Shown here piece after piece: positions 2,864 to 38,582 of a stretch of DNA of 39,677 nucleotides. Source of the DNA: Candidatus Mediterraneibacter intestinigallinarum (GTDB taxonomy: Bacteria; Bacillota; Clostridia; Lachnospirales; Lachnospiraceae). Position 1 is the stretch's first letter. Each line of letters begins with the position of its first letter. The notes below the pieces were generated by a model. That model had not been told where the DNA came from, searched no databases, and saw nothing but the letters and a program-made list of their open reading frames with translations. Location: the NCBI GenBank assembly GCA_019119265.1, contig DWXI01000080.1, forward strand, positions 1-39,677, given 5' to 3'. The position numbers and the translations under genes are program-made.

Positions 2864-3229
2864 AATTCGTGTTTGTTGTATAGATAACTCAGTAAAAATA
2901 GAAAAGCTAACGGGTCTGAATTACGGACGCCGAGAGAAGCGGATACTGTAACGCCATGCCGGCCCGCTTTACCTCATCCCCTGGAATCCCTGTAACAAAA
3001 AAGAAATGCTCGTTCATTGGAACTCGTATTTCTTTTTTTAACAGGGAGAAGCAGGTGTATTCGGAACGCTCCTGCCTTCATGCATGGCTTATACAGTATC
3101 CGCTTCTCGCAGCTGGCGCATCAGACGTCAGATTTTCTGGTTATCCGCAGAACATTCTATAAACAAACATTCATAAAAACGGGAAGAAATGGGCACTTTA
3201 TCGATTCGGCTCCAATCTCTTCCCATTTC
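2864..3229 (+). repeat. Module A-left (plus-strand half of locus A)
   Basis: In order: the boundary sequence; the 5' strand of the closing stem at 2934-2950, which pairs perfectly over 17 bp with 3092-3108; GCCATG (2953-2958) pairing with CATGGC (3083-3088); box GCCGGCCCGCTTTACCTCA (2958-2976); an apical hairpin with CCCTGT/ACAGGG (2988-2993/3041-3046) and a 13-bp upper stem (2997-3009/3026-3038, one G-T) capped by TCGTTCATTGGAACTC; GGTGTATTCGGAACGC (3054-3069); then CTGGCGCATC and the 3' hairpin shared with module A-right. It would be transcribed as the 3' extension of rqcH mRNA. Confidence 0.85.
3174..3229. terminator. Shared 3' hairpin at the centre of locus A, bidirectional terminator-like
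   Basis: GGGAAGA (3181-3187) pairs with TCTTCCC (3218-3224). The overlapping alternative GAAATGGG (3186-3193) pairs with CCCATTTC (3222-3229). On the minus strand the stem is followed by GTTTTTATG, as in an intrinsic terminator; on the plus strand by a weaker ATTTCT. The loop contains ATCGATAAAGT read on the minus strand, a sequence kept in copy B and as ATCAATAAAGT in copy C. Confidence 0.6.
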
Positions 3230-3541
3230 TATGAGTATTTGTTCGGAGATTGTTATAATTATCGGATGGAAAATCTATCGATTGGATGAACCAGCAAAAA
3301 AGACGGAACTGCGTGAGTCATGCATCAAGGCAGAAGCGTTCCGAAAAGCATTTGTTCTGGATGTTAGGCGAAAGAAATGGGAGTTCCAATGAACGAGCAT
3401 TTCCTTTCACCGTTACATCCATTCAAATCTTTGAGGTAGAGCGGGCCGGCATGGCGATGCAGTTCCGTCTTTTTTGCGTCTTCTTATCGATATGACATTT
3501 TTAATCGGTATAACGCATAATCTCTGGAACAAACACGAATT
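3174..3541 (-). repeat. Module A-right (minus-strand half of locus A)
   Basis: Read on the minus strand, it begins AATTCGTGTTTGTT at the ATPase stop codon. It has a perfect 19-bp closing stem of unrelated sequence to A-left (3459-3477 with 3294-3312), the box GCCGGCCCGCTCTACCTCA, and an apical hairpin (GGATGT/ACATCC at 3415-3420/3359-3364) with an identical 16-nt loop. It then carries TTTTCGGAACGC and ends in the shared 3' hairpin followed by GTTTTT. Different stem sequence with identical loop and box sequence is the key observation. Confidence 0.85.
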
Positions 3542-4845
3542 TATTTTCTCTCGACTTCCTGCCCCATCAGGTAATCTACGAACTGCTGTGCTGTTCTTCC
3601 CGACAGGCCGCCATGGGCGAGTTCCCATTTATTTGCCTCCAGCAGGAGCTGATCTTCCGGCATATCAATGCCGCCGCGCTGGGCAAGGACGCGCACGATT
3701 TCCTGAAATTCCTTCTTATCCGGGGAACCGAAATAAATCGTCACGCCAAAACGCGCCACAAGAGATAACTTCTCCTGTACAGTATCATTTGTGTGAAGCT
3801 CTTCATCCCTGTCCGCCTTGTCCCTAAATGTTTCCCGAATCAGATGCCTGCGGTTCGAAGTTGCGTAGATCAGTACATTCTCCGGCTTTCTCTCAAGCCC
3901 GCCCTCGATCACGGCTTTCAAATATTTATACTCAATCTCAAATTCTTCAAAAGAGAGATCATCCATATAAATAATAAACTTATAATTGCGGTTCTTCACC
4001 TGGGCGATCACATCGTTCAGATCTTTAAACTGATGTTTATAGACCTCGATCATACGAAGGCCCTGATCATAATACTGGTTCAGGATTGCCTTGATCGAAG
4101 AAGACTTTCCCGTTCCCGCATCACCAAACAGGAGGCAGTTATTTGCCCTGCGTCCTTTTACAAAAGCCTCCGTGTTATCGATCAGTTTCTTTTTGGCAAT
4201 CTCATATCCTACCAGATCATCCAGATGGACGTGCGCGATGTTCGTAATCGGCATAATCTCCATGTCTCCCCCTTCCGGATGCTCAATACGAAACGCCTTG
4301 TGAAGCCCCAGTTTTCCTACGCCGAACTCTTTATAGAACTGAGTCATCTTCCGCTTAAACTCTTCCACATCCGCAGCTTCTCCAAGCGCTTCGGCCAGCG
4401 TGCAGATCCGGTCTCTCACCCTGCGGTTGAATACTTTTCCTGTCCTGCTGCCATTCTTGTAATCCATGAGCACCTGGATGCATCCCGCCCCAAGATCTTT
4501 CTCCAATTCACTGAAATCATAGTCGAACAGTTCTTTGAAAATACCGAAGTCATGAAGTGCAATCTCATTGATACTCCCCTCGATCTCTCCCACGATTTCA
4601 CAGGAAGTACTGTAGGCGTTCTCATCATTTACCAGAAGGAATGTCAGATAAGTATGCCAGAGATTTCCCTCAAATCCATGGCTTACCGAAAGTTCCAGAA
4701 GCTCATTGACACATTCAAAGAGAAGACTTCTAAGATCCTCCGCATTGTAGTACTCATTTCCATGGTTTTCCATGAGAAATGTCATGTCCTGCAACACTTC
4801 GCCATAGTCCATATTTTTATAAAGCATAAGTTCATTTGTACGCAT
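3541..4845 (-). CDS. DUF815 family AAA-type ATPase
   Basis: This 434-residue protein has an uncharacterised N-terminal half (about 1-195) and a DUF815 ATPase domain after it. It shows Walker A GDAGTGKSS (241-249), Walker B FIIYMDDLSFE with the acidic pair at 295-296, an arginine-rich segment YATSNRRHLIRETF, and a sensor region. DUF815 proteins are widespread single-domain ATPases of unknown job; the fold is related to the DnaA/DnaC-type AAA+ group. I see no partner gene that fixes a function. The ATG at 4845 is followed downstream by pheA's stop region in the opposite reading order: pheA ends 24 bases upstream, so the two may be co-transcribed. Its stop codon overlaps the terminus of repeat locus A. 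Confidence 0.88.
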   Translation of the reverse strand: MRTNELMLYKNMDYGEVLQDMTFLMENHGNEYYNAEDLRSLLFECVNELLELSVSHGFEGNLWHTYLTFLLVNDENAYSTSCEIVGEIEGSINEIALHDFGIFKELFDYDFSELEKDLGAGCIQVLMDYKNGSRTGKVFNRRVRDRICTLAEALGEAADVEEFKRKMTQFYKEFGVGKLGLHKAFRIEHPEGGDMEIMPITNIAHVHLDDLVGYEIAKKKLIDNTEAFVKGRRANNCLLFGDAGTGKSSSIKAILNQYYDQGLRMIEVYKHQFKDLNDVIAQVKNRNYKFIIYMDDLSFEEFEIEYKYLKAVIEGGLERKPENVLIYATSNRRHLIRETFRDKADRDEELHTNDTVQEKLSLVARFGVTIYFGSPDKKEFQEIVRVLAQRGGIDMPEDQLLLEANKWELAHGGLSGRTAQQFVDYLMGQEVERK

Positions 4846-7751: not shown

Positions 7752-8195
7752 ATGGTAAAAAATACATTGAATGTAGGAAGTATCTCTGAAGGTTTTGTTC
7801 TTGACCATATTGAGGCAGGCAGGAGTATGGACATTTACAAATATCTGCACCTGGACAAGCTGGACTGCTGCGTCGCCATCATCAAGAACGCAAAGAGCAA
7901 TAAAATGGGCAGGAAAGATATTATCAAGATTGAGTGCCCGATCGACTTCATGGATCTGGATATTCTCGGATTCATTGATCACAACATCACGATCAATATC
8001 ATCGAGGATGAAAAGATCGTTGAGAAGAAACAGCTGAAACTCCCGAAAGAGATCCGCAATGTGATCCGCTGCAAGAACCCGAGATGCATTACATCCATCG
8101 AGCAGGGGCTGGATCATGTGTTTGTGCTCACAGATGAGGAAAATCAGATCTACAGATGTAAATACTGCGAAGAGAAATACAGACGAAGAAGATAG
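7752..8195 (+). CDS. pyrI: Aspartate carbamoyltransferase regulatory subunit
   Basis: This 147-residue protein is the nucleotide-binding regulatory chain of aspartate transcarbamoylase. The N-terminal allosteric domain (about 1-95) starts LNVGSISEGFVLDHIEAG. The C-terminal zinc domain has four cysteines at 107, 112, 136 and 139 in the CX4C...CX2C pattern. AGAAAGGAAA precedes the ATG. The pyrB-pyrI gap includes TGATCAGAATTGATCA, a short palindromic repeat of unknown meaning. Repeat module D starts at the base after the stop codon. No other pyr genes lie in the window. Confidence 0.97.
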   Translation: MVKNTLNVGSISEGFVLDHIEAGRSMDIYKYLHLDKLDCCVAIIKNAKSNKMGRKDIIKIECPIDFMDLDILGFIDHNITINIIEDEKIVEKKQLKLPKEIRNVIRCKNPRCITSIEQGLDHVFVLTDEENQIYRCKYCEEKYRRRR

Positions 8196-8361
8196 AGTCG
8201 TGTTTATTGAACAGACACCGCTGTGATAGTGTAAAGACATACTGATCGAACAACGGACGCAGAAAAAGAGAAGATACTGCATAGCTTATGCGGTATCTTC
8301 TTTTTCTGCTGGATTATCCGGTCAGTACACATTTTCAGTTGCAGCGCCATCTTTCAACAAG
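8196..8361 (+). repeat. Repeat locus D: single module with deleted interior
   Basis: It starts AGTCGTGTTTATT (8196-8208) directly at the base after the pyrI stop and stays close to module C through CGGACGC. The closing stem is retained (8259-8281 with 8289-8309, with a two-base bulge and one G-T). However, everything inside it is reduced to TAGCTTA: box, apical hairpin and GGAACGC segment are gone. Compared with C, the deletion falls between copies of TGCA. The 3' flank CTGGATTATCCGGTCAG...GCCATCTTTCAACAA matches C up to about 8361; the 3' terminator-like hairpin is absent. It lies between the convergent genes pyrI and the HepT-like gene. Confidence 0.8.
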
Positions 8362-8415
8362 TAAATTATTAACATTCTATCATGGCATCATTGCCCCATC
8401 ATTTCACTCGACAAA

Positions 8416-10211: not shown

Positions 10212-10238
10212 CTTTTTTATCTCCAGTCATAAAAATAG

Positions 10239-10591
10239 TGTCAAGCAAGACGATAAGCCGGGTTATGTCTTTGGACGATCATCTGTCTAGGCGCAGCGTC
10301 GCCGCTGCGCTCGAGCGACCTACCTGAAACGTGACGGGCAGCCACATTGTTTCTATCCGGTCTTGCTTCGGATGGGGTTTACATGTGCCCCTGCTGTTAC
10401 CAGCAGGGCGGTAGTCTCTTACACTGCCTTTCCACCCTTACCGGGGAGATCCCGGCGGTTTATTTCTGTTGCACTGGCCTTGGAGTCGCCTCCACCGGAC
10501 GTTATCCGGCATCCTGCCCTGTGAAGCCCGGACTTTCCTCGTCTGCAGCCTTTCGGCTCCTGCATCCGCGATCGTCTGTCTTACTTGACAC
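10239..10591 (-). ncRNA. rnpB: RNase P RNA, bacterial class A
   Basis: Read on the minus strand, the RNA has the universal 5' core GAGGAAAGTCCGGGCT, then CACAGGGCAGG, GGGTGGAAAGGCAGTG, the 3' core CAGGTAGGTCGC, and a closing ATAACCCGGCTTATCG. The ends pair as an extended P1 helix (GTCAAGTAAGAC with GTCTTGCTTGAC, one G-U). The length of about 353 nt fits the family. Its catalytic role is 5' maturation of tRNA. Ends are set from helix P1 and the promoter position, so they may be off by a few bases. Confidence 0.95.
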
Positions 10592-14614: not shown

Positions 14615-15139
14615 AGCCGTGTTTGTTATATAGATCTTCTGCTGAAAATAAAAAAGGGATCTTATTTGAATTGCGGACGCTAAGAGAAGCGGATACTATA
14701 ACGCCATGCCGGCCCGCTTCTCCTGCTTCTGTTTATCCATAGTGTAATCTATAAACAAAACTTTATAAAAACGGGAAGAGAGTGGAACTTTATCGATATA
14801 GCGCCACTTTCTTCCTGTTTCTATGAGTATTTGTTCAGAGATTTTTGTGATGGCCGGAGTGAAAAAAATGTTCAGACTGGATGAGACAGCAGGAAAAAGG
14901 GGAACTGCATGAGCCATGCATCAAGGCAGGAGCGTTCTGAAAAGCATTTGTTCTGGATGTTAGGCGCAAGGGAATGGGAGTTCCACTGGACGAGCATTCC
15001 CTTGCGTCGTTACATCCATTCAAATCTTTGAGGTAAAGCGGGCCGGCATGGCGACGCAGTTCCCCTTTTTTCTGTGTCAGCCACTCTATCTGATATTCTT
15101 TATTCAAAACATCAAATAAACTCTGTAACAAACACGAAT
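14615..15139. repeat. Repeat locus B: head-to-head dimer with interior deletion in the left module
   Basis: The ends are AGCCGTGTTTGTT (14615-14627, two changes from consensus) and AACAAACACGAAT (15127-15139). The right module (minus strand) is intact. Its closing stem is 15056-15074 with 14890-14908 (19 bp, one G-T), and its apical hairpin has a perfect 12-bp stem CGCAAGGGAATG (14965-14976) with 14995-15006 and loop TCGTCCAGTGGAACTC on the minus strand. The left module keeps its boundary, CGGACGC, GAGAAGCGGATACTATA and GCCGGCCCGCTT, then jumps to the far side of the closing stem. Compared with A this deletes roughly 130-140 bases between CCGCTT repeats. The right end is four bases from the spoIVA stop. 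The left end faces the 5' side of punA. Confidence 0.87.
14766..14815. terminator. Shared 3' hairpin of locus B
   Basis: GGAAGAGAGTGG (14774-14785) pairs with CCACTTTCTTCC (14804-14815), 12 bp with one G-T. On the minus strand it is followed by GTTTTTATA, like an intrinsic terminator for transcripts arriving from spoIVA through the right module. The loop retains ATCGATAAAGT (minus strand), as at locus A. Confidence 0.6.
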
Positions 15140-35673: not shown

Positions 35674-36963
35674 ATGAAAATCGTCGGACTGATCACAGAA
35701 TATAATCCATTCCACAACGGACATCTCTATCATATACAGGAAGCGAAACGTATTACCGGGGCAGATACAGCCATCGTCGTCATGAGCGGCGATTACGTAC
35801 AGCGCGGTGTGCCCGCCATCATGCCAAAACGTCTGCGCGCCGAGATGGCTTTAAAATGCGGGGCTTCCGCTGTATTCGAGATTCCTGTATGCTATGCCTC
35901 CGGAAGTGCGGAATATTTCGCCACGGGCGCCGTATCCCTCCTAAACGGTCTCGGAATTGTTGACTGCCTCTGTTTCGGCAGTGAATGTAATGATCTTGAC
36001 GCCCTTGAACGCGTTGCAGACATCCTCTTGAACGAACCGGCAAAATACCGTTTTCTTCTGAAAAAGCACCTGAAGAGCGGACTTTCCTATCCCGCCGCAC
36101 GCATGCGGGCCGTTTCCGGATACACAGAGGATGCCGCCCTCGCTGCTGTTCTCGGTGATCCGAATAACATCCTGGGTATTGAATACCTGAAAGCAATCAA
36201 AAAACTTGACAGCAGGATCATCCCCTACACGATCAAAAGAGCCGGCGCCCATTATCATGACCGTCAGCTCTCCGACGAACACTTAAGTTCCGCCTCAGCC
36301 ATCCGGTCTCTCCTCGCATACTCGGGATCTGCCCTGCAGACAGACTGTTCCGGCGGCACTTTTGAAAGCCCGTCTTTTTCCGGAATACTGAACGAACTGG
36401 AAGATCAGGTGCCCTCCTGCTGTCTCGAACTTTTAAAGGATTACCACAGAGTCTCTTATCCTGTTTACCAGAATGACTTTTCGCTCATCCTGAAATACAA
36501 ACTGTTAAACAAACAGCCGGACAGCCTTCTCCGCTACATGGATGTATCTGAAGAACTGGCCAACCGGATCTATGCACAACTTGACAACTATTTTAACTAT
36601 AAACAATTCTGCGATCTTATGAAAACACGGGAGACAACCCATACCCGCATCAATCGTGCGTTTCTCCACATTATGCTGGGTATCAAAAAAAATGATATGT
36701 CAGAATACATCAAAGGCGGTTATCACTATTACGCCCGCCTTCTAGGAATTAGAAAAGACCGTGAAAAAATACTTGCACGCATTGCAAAAGAGAGCCCTCT
36801 TACTCTTCTCACCCGACTTTCGGAAAGCGAAAGCCTTCCCGCTATCGGCAGAAGGATGCTCAGAAATGATATCCTGGCGTCTAACCTGTACACATCCGTA
36901 GTGACGGATAAATATCGGACGGCTTATCAGAATGAATACAGGCAGCGGCTCCTTAAAATATAG
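35674..36963 (+). CDS. tmcAL: tRNA(Met) cytidine acetate ligase TmcAL
   Basis: This 429-residue protein belongs to the YlbM/TmcAL family, which uses ATP and free acetate to form N4-acetylcytidine at the wobble base of elongator tRNA-Met. The nucleotidyltransferase-like N-terminus has MKIVGLITEYNPFHNGHLYHI (HxGH-type ATP site). MSGDYVQRGVPAIMPKRLRAEMAL and GSAEYFATGAV follow, then SSASAIRSLL and a helical RNA-binding C-terminal part. AAGGAG precedes the ATG. The source of acetate, pta-ackA, is encoded about 2 kb away. Repeat module C starts at the base after the stop codon. Confidence 0.95.
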   Translation: MKIVGLITEYNPFHNGHLYHIQEAKRITGADTAIVVMSGDYVQRGVPAIMPKRLRAEMALKCGASAVFEIPVCYASGSAEYFATGAVSLLNGLGIVDCLCFGSECNDLDALERVADILLNEPAKYRFLLKKHLKSGLSYPAARMRAVSGYTEDAALAAVLGDPNNILGIEYLKAIKKLDSRIIPYTIKRAGAHYHDRQLSDEHLSSASAIRSLLAYSGSALQTDCSGGTFESPSFSGILNELEDQVPSCCLELLKDYHRVSYPVYQNDFSLILKYKLLNKQPDSLLRYMDVSEELANRIYAQLDNYFNYKQFCDLMKTRETTHTRINRAFLHIMLGIKKNDMSEYIKGGYHYYARLLGIRKDREKILARIAKESPLTLLTRLSESESLPAIGRRMLRNDILASNLYTSVVTDKYRTAYQNEYRQRLLKI

Positions 36964-37331
36964 ATTCGTGTTTATTGAACAGACAACGCTGTAATAGTAA
37001 AGACTATACTGATCGAACAGCGGACGCAGAAAAAGAAGATACTGCAGCTATGCCGGCCCGCTTTACCTCATCCCCTCGAATCCATGTAACACAATATCAA
37101 AATGCTCGTCCATTGGAACTCGCATTTTAATATTGCTAACATGGAGAACGAGGTGTATTCGGAACGCTCCATGCCGATGCATAGCTTATGCAGTATCTTC
37201 TTTTTCTGCTGGCGCATCCGACCAGTATATTTTTAGCCGCAGTGCCATCTTTCAATAAACCCTCATACAAATCGGAAGTGACCGGAACTTCATCAATAAA
37301 GTTCATCCTTCGACCAGTTTTTTCTGATTCC
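36964..37331 (+). repeat. Repeat locus C: single intact module
   Basis: It starts ATTCGTGTTTATT (36964-36976) directly after the tmcAL stop. The closing stem is a perfect 21 bp (37026-37046 with 37189-37209). GCTATG pairs with CATAGC, where module A has GCCATG/CATGGC. It has the box GCCGGCCCGCTTTACCTCA and an apical hairpin CCATGT/ACATGG (37082-37087/37139-37144) with upper stem 37093-37105/37122-37134 and loop TCGTCCATTGGAACTC (37106-37121). GGTGTATTCGGAACGC follows, then the 3' hairpin GAACTT/AAGTTC (37285-37290/37299-37304) with ATCAATAAAGT and a GTTTTTTCT run (37317-37325). It lies between the convergent genes tmcAL and icd. The 54 bases from its end to the icd stop hold an inverted repeat GAGACG...CGTCTC without a clear T run. 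Confidence 0.88.
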
Positions 37332-37385
37332 ATGCTTGCCGGAGAGACGCTTTATCTAAAAAACGTCTCTCAGACAACCATGAAT

Positions 37386-38582
37386 TTACAGTCTTTTTGC
37401 AATCGCTTTGATAAACTGCTCACTATTTAATACAGTCGGATTCTCAATCGTTGTGATCAGTGCCAGGTCTTTTGTCATCTCGCCTGCCTCGATCGTATCG
37501 ATCGTTGCCTTCTCCAGGCGGTCAGCAAATTCCATCAGTTCTTTATTGCCGTCCAGCTCGCCGCGTTTGCGGAGAGCACCTGTCCATGCAAAGATTGTTG
37601 CCACAGAATTTGTTGAGGTTTCCTCTCCTTTTAAATGTTTATAGTAATGGCGCTGCACTGTTCCGTGAGCTGCCTCGTACTCATAGTATCCTTCCGGAGA
37701 TACAAGCACGGATGTCATCATTGCAAGCGAACCGAATGCGGAAGAGATCATATCACTCATCACGTCTCCGTCATAGTTCTTGCAAGCCCAGATATATCCT
37801 CCCTGAGATTTCATCACGCGCGCTACTGCGTCATCGATCAGTGTGTAAAAATACTCGATTCCTGCCTCTTTAAACTTCTCGTCGAATTCTGCATCATAGA
37901 TTTCCTGGAAAATATCTTTAAATGTATGATCATATTTTTTGGAAATCGTATCTTTTGTTGCAAACCACAGATCCTGCTTCGTGTCAAGGGCATAGGAAAA
38001 ACAGCTTCTGGCGAAACTCTCAATGGACTTGTTCAGATTGTGCATGCCCTGAACGATACCTTCTCCGTCAAAATTATGTACGAGCTCTTTTGTCTGACTT
38101 CCGTCCTCGGCCGTATACACAAGCTCCACTTTACCCGGACCCGGTATCTTCATTTCAGATCCCTTATAAACATCACCATATGCATGCCTTGCAATGGTGA
38201 TCGGTTTCTTCCAGTTTTTCACGCACGGCTCAATTCCCTTTACAACGATAGGCGCACGGAATACTGTTCCGTCGAGGATTGCACGGATTGTTCCATTCGG
38301 GCTTTTCCACATCTCTTTTAAATTGTACTCATCCATACGCGCTGCATTCGGAGTGATCGTCGCGCACTTTACGGCCACTTTATATTTTTTTGTTGCCATC
38401 GCGGAATCTACCGTAACCTGATCGTTTGTCTCGTTCCTGTGCTCAAGGCCCAGATCATAATACTCTGTCTTAAGATCGATATATGGAATGAGCAGCTCAT
38501 CCTTGATCATCTTCCAGAGAATCCTTGTCATCTCGTCTCCGTCCATCTCTACCAACGGTGTCGTCATTCTAATTCTTTCCAT
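37386..38582 (-). CDS. icd: NADP-type isocitrate dehydrogenase (homodimeric, eukaryotic-like class)
   Basis: This 398-residue enzyme oxidises isocitrate to 2-oxoglutarate. It begins [23 protein letters not shown] and has [55 protein letters not shown] and [10 protein letters not shown], typical of the homodimeric class shared with mitochondrial IDH. The open frame reaches 38663, but GGAGG nine bases before the ATG at 38582 sets the start. It is 55 bases downstream of the GntR regulator. With citrate synthase it forms the oxidative half-cycle leading to glutamate. Confidence 0.95.

Follow-up and report, generated by a model that had tools for sequence, protein, structure and literature searches.

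A family of palindromic repeat elements with two inverted, folded modules, often placed directly behind stop codons in Mediterraneibacter

Introduction

MITEs such as RUP and the bcr repeats of Bacillus cereus are interspersed, foldable and non-coding and carry terminal inverted repeats, and palindromes also lie between the 3′ ends of convergent genes, as bidirectional terminators and BIME-type repeats. Among the large structured RNAs, HEARO is present in multiple copies. REPINs join two inverted palindromic units into one hairpin-capable, extragenic, non-autonomous and multi-copy unit, and REP units are described as short palindromes of 20–40 bp (PMC3733652).

Here, we analyse a repeat family found in a 39,677-nt stretch of DNA (hereafter the window) from Candidatus Mediterraneibacter intestinigallinarum, whose behaviour most resembles that of REPINs and MITEs. 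The family has the REPIN plan outlined above and, as in REPINs, single units may be remnants. It differs from REPINs in its ~310-nt modules, which covary strongly and contain unpaired segments that are conserved, in ends that are matched yet variable, in its placement at stop codons, and in that the repeats flanking the two RAYT-like genes examined, the arrangement that defines a REPIN, are not copies of the element. With RUP and bcr it shares all features named above, and the AATT that recurs at its ends may represent a duplicated target; unlike them, it has no partner transposon that we could see, is most conserved in its internal part and is placed at stop codons. HEARO, ROOL, GOLLD and OLE resemble it in their length of hundreds of nucleotides and in their elaborate conserved folds, whereas the element has no Rfam match, possesses terminal inverted repeats and an inverted two-module plan, and shows a weak strand preference. 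Compared with bidirectional terminators and BIME-type repeats it is much longer, is dispersed across a genus and fits closely to stop codons. We place the family among mobile elements that are palindromic and non-autonomous, and it may in addition act as RNA.

Results

The repeat unit is an end-to-end element of ~680–740 nt and not a 360-nt module: matched terminal inverted repeats enclose a central hairpin and two inverted, folded modules of ~310 nt, each with a core of ~187 nt. An earlier note on this DNA had taken modules of 360–370 nt as the unit, a view superseded by the ~680-nt element because full copies extend from one ATTCGTGTTTGTT end to the inverted copy of ATTCGTGTTTGTT. The 17 full elements, eight in the own genome (G000) and nine in a relative (G004), are 676–684 nt long, and all of them align with two inverted modules. 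Left and right modules are 62% identical, whereas modules on the same side of different elements are 84–85% identical, and the best conserved part of the element is internal rather than terminal. Elsewhere in the genus, other species carry a diverged, second type of right module, and their elements often reach ~735 nt. At the site of L111, the insert in G002 (L271, contig C3) is a ~797-nt element in which, by eye, both modules seem to be of this second type; module types may therefore combine freely.

The earlier view that the repeats hold no plausible protein stands, as no consistent reading frame runs across the copies. Coding on the outward strand was rejected after inspection by eye of up to 14 modules per class, since stops occur in every frame in the inspected copies outside type-D; some type-D modules do hold an open stretch on the outward strand, the frame of which shifts with stem length.

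Repeat finding and reading bear out the six modules that had been reported at four loci of the window, here A to D. The boundary motif, box, 16-nt loop and GGAACGC segment that the loci were said to have in common are present as described, except that B is without box and loop and that the boundary motif is imperfect in B and, in C, at the left end, with mismatches in both. Element A (2865–3540) is of full length, with two inverted modules, a central hairpin and terminal inverted repeats at 2865–2877 (ATTCGTGTTTGTT, plus strand) and 3528–3540 (minus strand). The core hairpins of its left module (2927–3113, minus strand) and right module (3292–3479, plus strand) are both given on their outward strands and score 190.6 and 185.4 bits, respectively, with the covariance model R1, whose training set includes both sequences. 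The central hairpin of A (GGGAAGA...TCTTCCC, 3165–3245) is at most weakly terminator-like and was not flagged by a terminator pattern scan. On the left, A ends 7 nt from the stop codon of rqcH (TAA, 2855–2857), and on the right 0 nt from the stop codon (3541–3543) of a convergent DUF815 gene.

The other three copies are shortened. Element B (8196–8363, end approximate) is a decayed remnant of one module with its core deleted, and starts directly (0 nt) after the pyrI stop codon (8193–8195). Element C (14615–15139) has lost the core of its left module and retains its centre and an intact right module, and its right end lies 4 nt away from the stop codon of spoIVA; the core hairpin of this right module (14888–15077, plus strand, outward) scores 196.4 bits with R1, and this copy is absent from the training set. 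Element D (36964–37385) combines a left module with a shrunken type-D right part and has a fold z-score of −9.56; its core hairpin (37024–37210, minus strand, outward) scores 200.5 bits with R1, which had the sequence in its training set. The right end of D, at 37385, is a degenerate right repeat, AACCATGAAT, which abuts the icd stop codon, and D exactly fills the gap between the convergent stop codons of a HIGH_NTase1 gene (36961–36963) and icd (37386–37388). The genes adjoining the window copies are ordinary and have complete domains (NFACT, DUF815, HIGH_NTase1, SpoIVA, PyrI and Iso_dh).

The family is real and widespread. Many copies genome-wide had been anticipated, and a DNA search at E <= 0.001, merged by hand, finds 33 places in the own genome, an assembly that is 88.5% complete, some of these places being only short fragments; end-pattern matches in the same genome number 33, against one for the reversed control. 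As expected for a family with further copies, the DNA search also matched 25 of 61 genomes, all 25 of them among the 37 genomes of the genus, and R1, a covariance model of the kind proposed in the earlier note, had matches in 29 of 39 genus genomes, or in 15 of 21 when only the better assemblies are counted. Matches to R1 range from 1 in the closed genome G018 to 66 in the closed genome G028, where all 66 candidates scored were matches and both strands of one palindrome can count. When 397 genomes of the bacterial family were searched with R1, at least four matched: besides the own genome, these were three genomes belonging to two further genera, a tally that is a lower bound because filters were strict and few candidates were scored. 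Five of the matching places, viewed by eye, resemble single modules, and three of them clearly adjoin a stop codon; one further place, in G115, has two R1 matches on opposite strands within 400 nt. The plasmids and phages searched gave no match to the element. Against Rfam 15 the element has no match above the gathering score in the window, and a permissive cmscan on A and one type-D relative returned only microRNA families far below their cut-offs, so that the link to HEARO, ROOL, GOLLD or OLE that had been considered was not recovered in either search. A literature search that covered largely the opening lines of abstracts found no description of this element family.

The fit to stop codons extends well beyond the window. 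Among 97 element ends with distinct flanks, several of which represent one site in two species and are therefore not independent, 63 lie <=10 nt from the stop codon of a long frame (at least 100 codons) running towards the element and 40 lie at 0–1 nt from such a stop, compared with 139 of 8200 random positions in the same DNA that fall <=10 nt from a long-frame stop. All 58 genus genomes contain a match to a flank of the A site. From these, 20 genomes with the flanks close together were chosen, and none of the 19 that were measurable has room for the element, the gaps ranging from an overlap to 174 nt. G004 carries an element at the same place as A, and in G036 an element end abuts the rqcH match. 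We rejected the idea that the element provides the stop codon, because the abutting genes have complete domains; it is also opposed by the 19 element-less relatives, in which the alignable rqcH ends 0–27 nt before the stop codon used in the window.

What occupies a site can change. G000 and G004 have five full-element sites in common, out of only 17 full elements, although at one of these (L093/L116) only the left flank was matched. At four of the five at least one occupant is nearer to a copy elsewhere, and at three the two genomes carry the occupant in opposite orientations with respect to the adjoining genes. In one inverted pair the occupants are 99.3% identical, between flanks that are 86.3 and 92.8% identical. 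At another site, each of five species has a different variant, and all five lie directly against the same pair of stop codons (types assigned by eye). Sequence and orientation of the occupant are thus decoupled from the locus, and this turnover and inversion make the element look mobile or exchangeable. The data fit a unit that is exchanged whole, and gene conversion is also possible. No clean recent insertion was present among the sites read, where empty sites are diverged or remnant-like: two apparently empty versions of one further site retain what appears by eye to be the apical hairpin of a second-type module. The G065 site (L255) was considered as an old target and is better explained by a deletion at a shared 5-nt word, after which one end of the element stayed behind. 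In the closed genome G028 similar copies have different flanks and sharp boundaries. As a related observation, L332–L344 (G001) and L345–L353 (G028) have other terminal repeats around the same core and include several near-alike copies with sharp boundaries, which makes these two genomes good material for finding recent insertions.

The predicted core fold has 67 pairs; 97.8% of cells are paired and 37 of the 67 pairs show double changes. Double-change cells number 379, compared with 103 after shuffling and 32–82 when the alignment was slid, the structure having been predicted from the same alignment on which the changes were counted. Each module can close on itself, but pairing of its outer and inner repeats with their counterparts in the second module is possible as well.

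Compensatory changes of this kind can be mimicked by template switching, which makes such switching between the arms a live alternative as the cause of the stem covariation. On this account the copies would be old, immobile repeats that are kept palindromic by DNA template switching between arms, the middle of which can invert; as both stems and ends would be matched in this way, the covariation would be silent on RNA or transposition. Template switching is reported to homogenise the arms of inverted repeats and invert the spacer (PMC8604942) and to maintain RNA hairpins (PMC8794818). The stem changes are indeed mostly double (379 cells), and the remnants at common sites suggest long residence. 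It leaves unexplained, however, the 33 places, the placement at stop codons, the 99.3% identical inverted occupant between flanks of 86–93% identity, and the excess of G-U over A-C on one strand, and we consider it possible as a full account but rather unlikely.

That excess concerns pairs we call strand-neutral, predicted on both strands with G-U forbidden. Read on the outward strand, G-U and A-C cells at these pairs stand at 40:21 over all cores and at 49:16, 30:11, 19:8 and 30:9 class by class, with sign tests per set giving p values of 0.05–0.59 for sets that overlap and with kinship ignored. The control, RNase P from the same genus, shows a stronger preference than the element (12:2, p 0.02). 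The window itself contains a bacterial class A RNase P RNA at 10238–10587 on the minus strand (303.9 bits). Purines are enriched at the unpaired positions of the outward strand (A 32%, G 30%, C 12%), where the columns show no general C-to-T bias (12 C/T and 18 A/G). An initial reading as DNA-only pairing, taken from the inward-strand count, was dropped, as the strand test, also without G-U pairs, gives a mild preference of the module fold for the outward strand; the better-folding strand is the opposite of the one read in the earlier note. If both modules prefer the outward strand, two outward RNAs would fit, and one folded strand spanning the whole element would not. The suggestion that the repeats are a large structured RNA thus holds in part: the covariation is strong, but terminal inverted repeats and occupants that turn over and invert are more like mobile DNA.

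In a mobile structured-RNA system, two divergent, folded RNAs of ~310 nt would be read from the centre outward, their paired ends would delimit the mobile unit, and the element would home behind stop codons, replacing or inverting earlier occupants. We regard this as unlikely; if true, such elements would make up a class of mobile element that contains RNA and follows a new rule of target choice. In pattern scans, neither promoter-like nor terminator-like sites were in excess at the element. Its hairpins, judged by eye, could perhaps act as terminators.

The ends bear on how the element might move. Terminal inverted repeats match at >=10 of 13 bases in 46 elements, perfectly so in 18, and the variants change as pairs (ATTTG/CAAAT, ATACG/CGTAT and CTTCG/CGAAG); at L093/L116, too, the outer bases of one occupant differ from those of the other while staying matched within each. 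An A precedes the left end in 40 of 46 elements and a T follows the right end in 44 of 46, which places AATT at most ends. A direct repeat of exactly 4 nt is found at the ends of 32 of the 46 elements when the boundary may shift, and repeats of >=4 nt occur in 34 of 46 true flank pairs compared with 31.4 expected from shuffled, mismatched flanks, so no locus-specific target duplication was detected at the ends of these 46 elements. The ends in G001 (TATAAATTTAAC) and G028 (AAATTTGTAGTTGTT) are otherwise different, yet they too are matched and contain AATT. The constant AATT is either end sequence or a fixed target that is duplicated.

The second option would suit a classical MITE, a relative of a cut-and-paste DNA transposon that inserts at, and duplicates, a fixed AATT. 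Terminal inverted repeats are present, AATT is constant at most ends, including those of G001 and G028, and two apparently empty sites in G076 (L258 and L261) read, by eye, AATT-GG-AATT and AATT-TCG-ATTT, which look like, and may be, footprints of excision, each keeping two AATT-like halves. However, the outer variants ATACG/CGTAT and CTTCG/CGAAG change as inverted and not as direct repeats, and conservation is highest inside the element instead of at its ends. Nor did a partner transposon appear among exact end pairs in five genomes: the pattern ATTYGTGTTTRTY gave 23 such pairs, all less than 0.7 kb apart, and 29 of its 75 hits had no exact partner. A classical MITE is in our view distinctly improbable.

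Could the element instead be moved by a RAYT (REP-associated tyrosine transposase) carried by the genus? A REPIN-type family of this kind would share with the element an extragenic position and a plan of two palindromes in inverted orientation, which is described for REPINs (PMC3116915). Of 25 genus genomes, 14 have frames of 246–285 aa with a Y1_Tnp domain, and the one Y1 protein tested matches REP_Tyr_transpos, although at 71.9 bits this falls below the cut-off of 80. Against such a role, none of 14 Y1 neighbourhoods of 2.8–4.5 kb contains a module, and the flanks of the two Y1 genes examined carry a different hairpin. In G000 (L318, contig C240) a GGGGACGTAGT...ACTACGTCCCC hairpin stands on either side of a RAYT-like gene, at 1810–1945 and 2690–2830, with similar hairpins flanking it in G004 (L319, contig C40), and this hairpin is likely a REP family of its own. 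By eye, the neighbours of the RAYT-like gene look like glyS and an aminopeptidase gene. The modules are also far larger than REPs, and occurrence of gene and element is discordant in eight genomes whose assemblies are partly incomplete: G010, G011, G022 and G023 have a Y1 gene and no R1 match, and G008, G012, G018 and G019 have R1 matches and no listed Y1 gene. As the flanks of both genes examined carry another hairpin and the occurrence of the gene does not follow that of the element, we rejected the RAYT as its partner, and a REPIN-type family moved by it is highly unlikely.

Discussion

With the architecture, copy number, covariation, stop-codon adjacency and decoupling from the locus observed here, we lean slightly towards a non-autonomous family of palindromic mobile elements that lives at the 3′ ends of genes. 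How would such a family persist? Its spread and exchange might be the work of an enzyme that acts on the ends in trans. Cells may tolerate the element since it has room between stop codons and offers hairpins usable as the 3′ ends, perhaps as terminators, of the flanking genes. Its ends and stems could stay matched through a folded intermediate or through copying of one arm from the other.

The close fit to stop codons, combined with exchange and inversion of the occupants at one site, is unusual and testable. The family also lends itself to telling genuine covariation of an RNA apart from stems that template switching has homogenised. For the organisms themselves, gut bacteria of the genus Mediterraneibacter can carry dozens of copies, often directly behind the stop codons of ordinary genes. 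As these copies can form the 3′ borders of housekeeping genes, they may set where the transcripts of both neighbours end.
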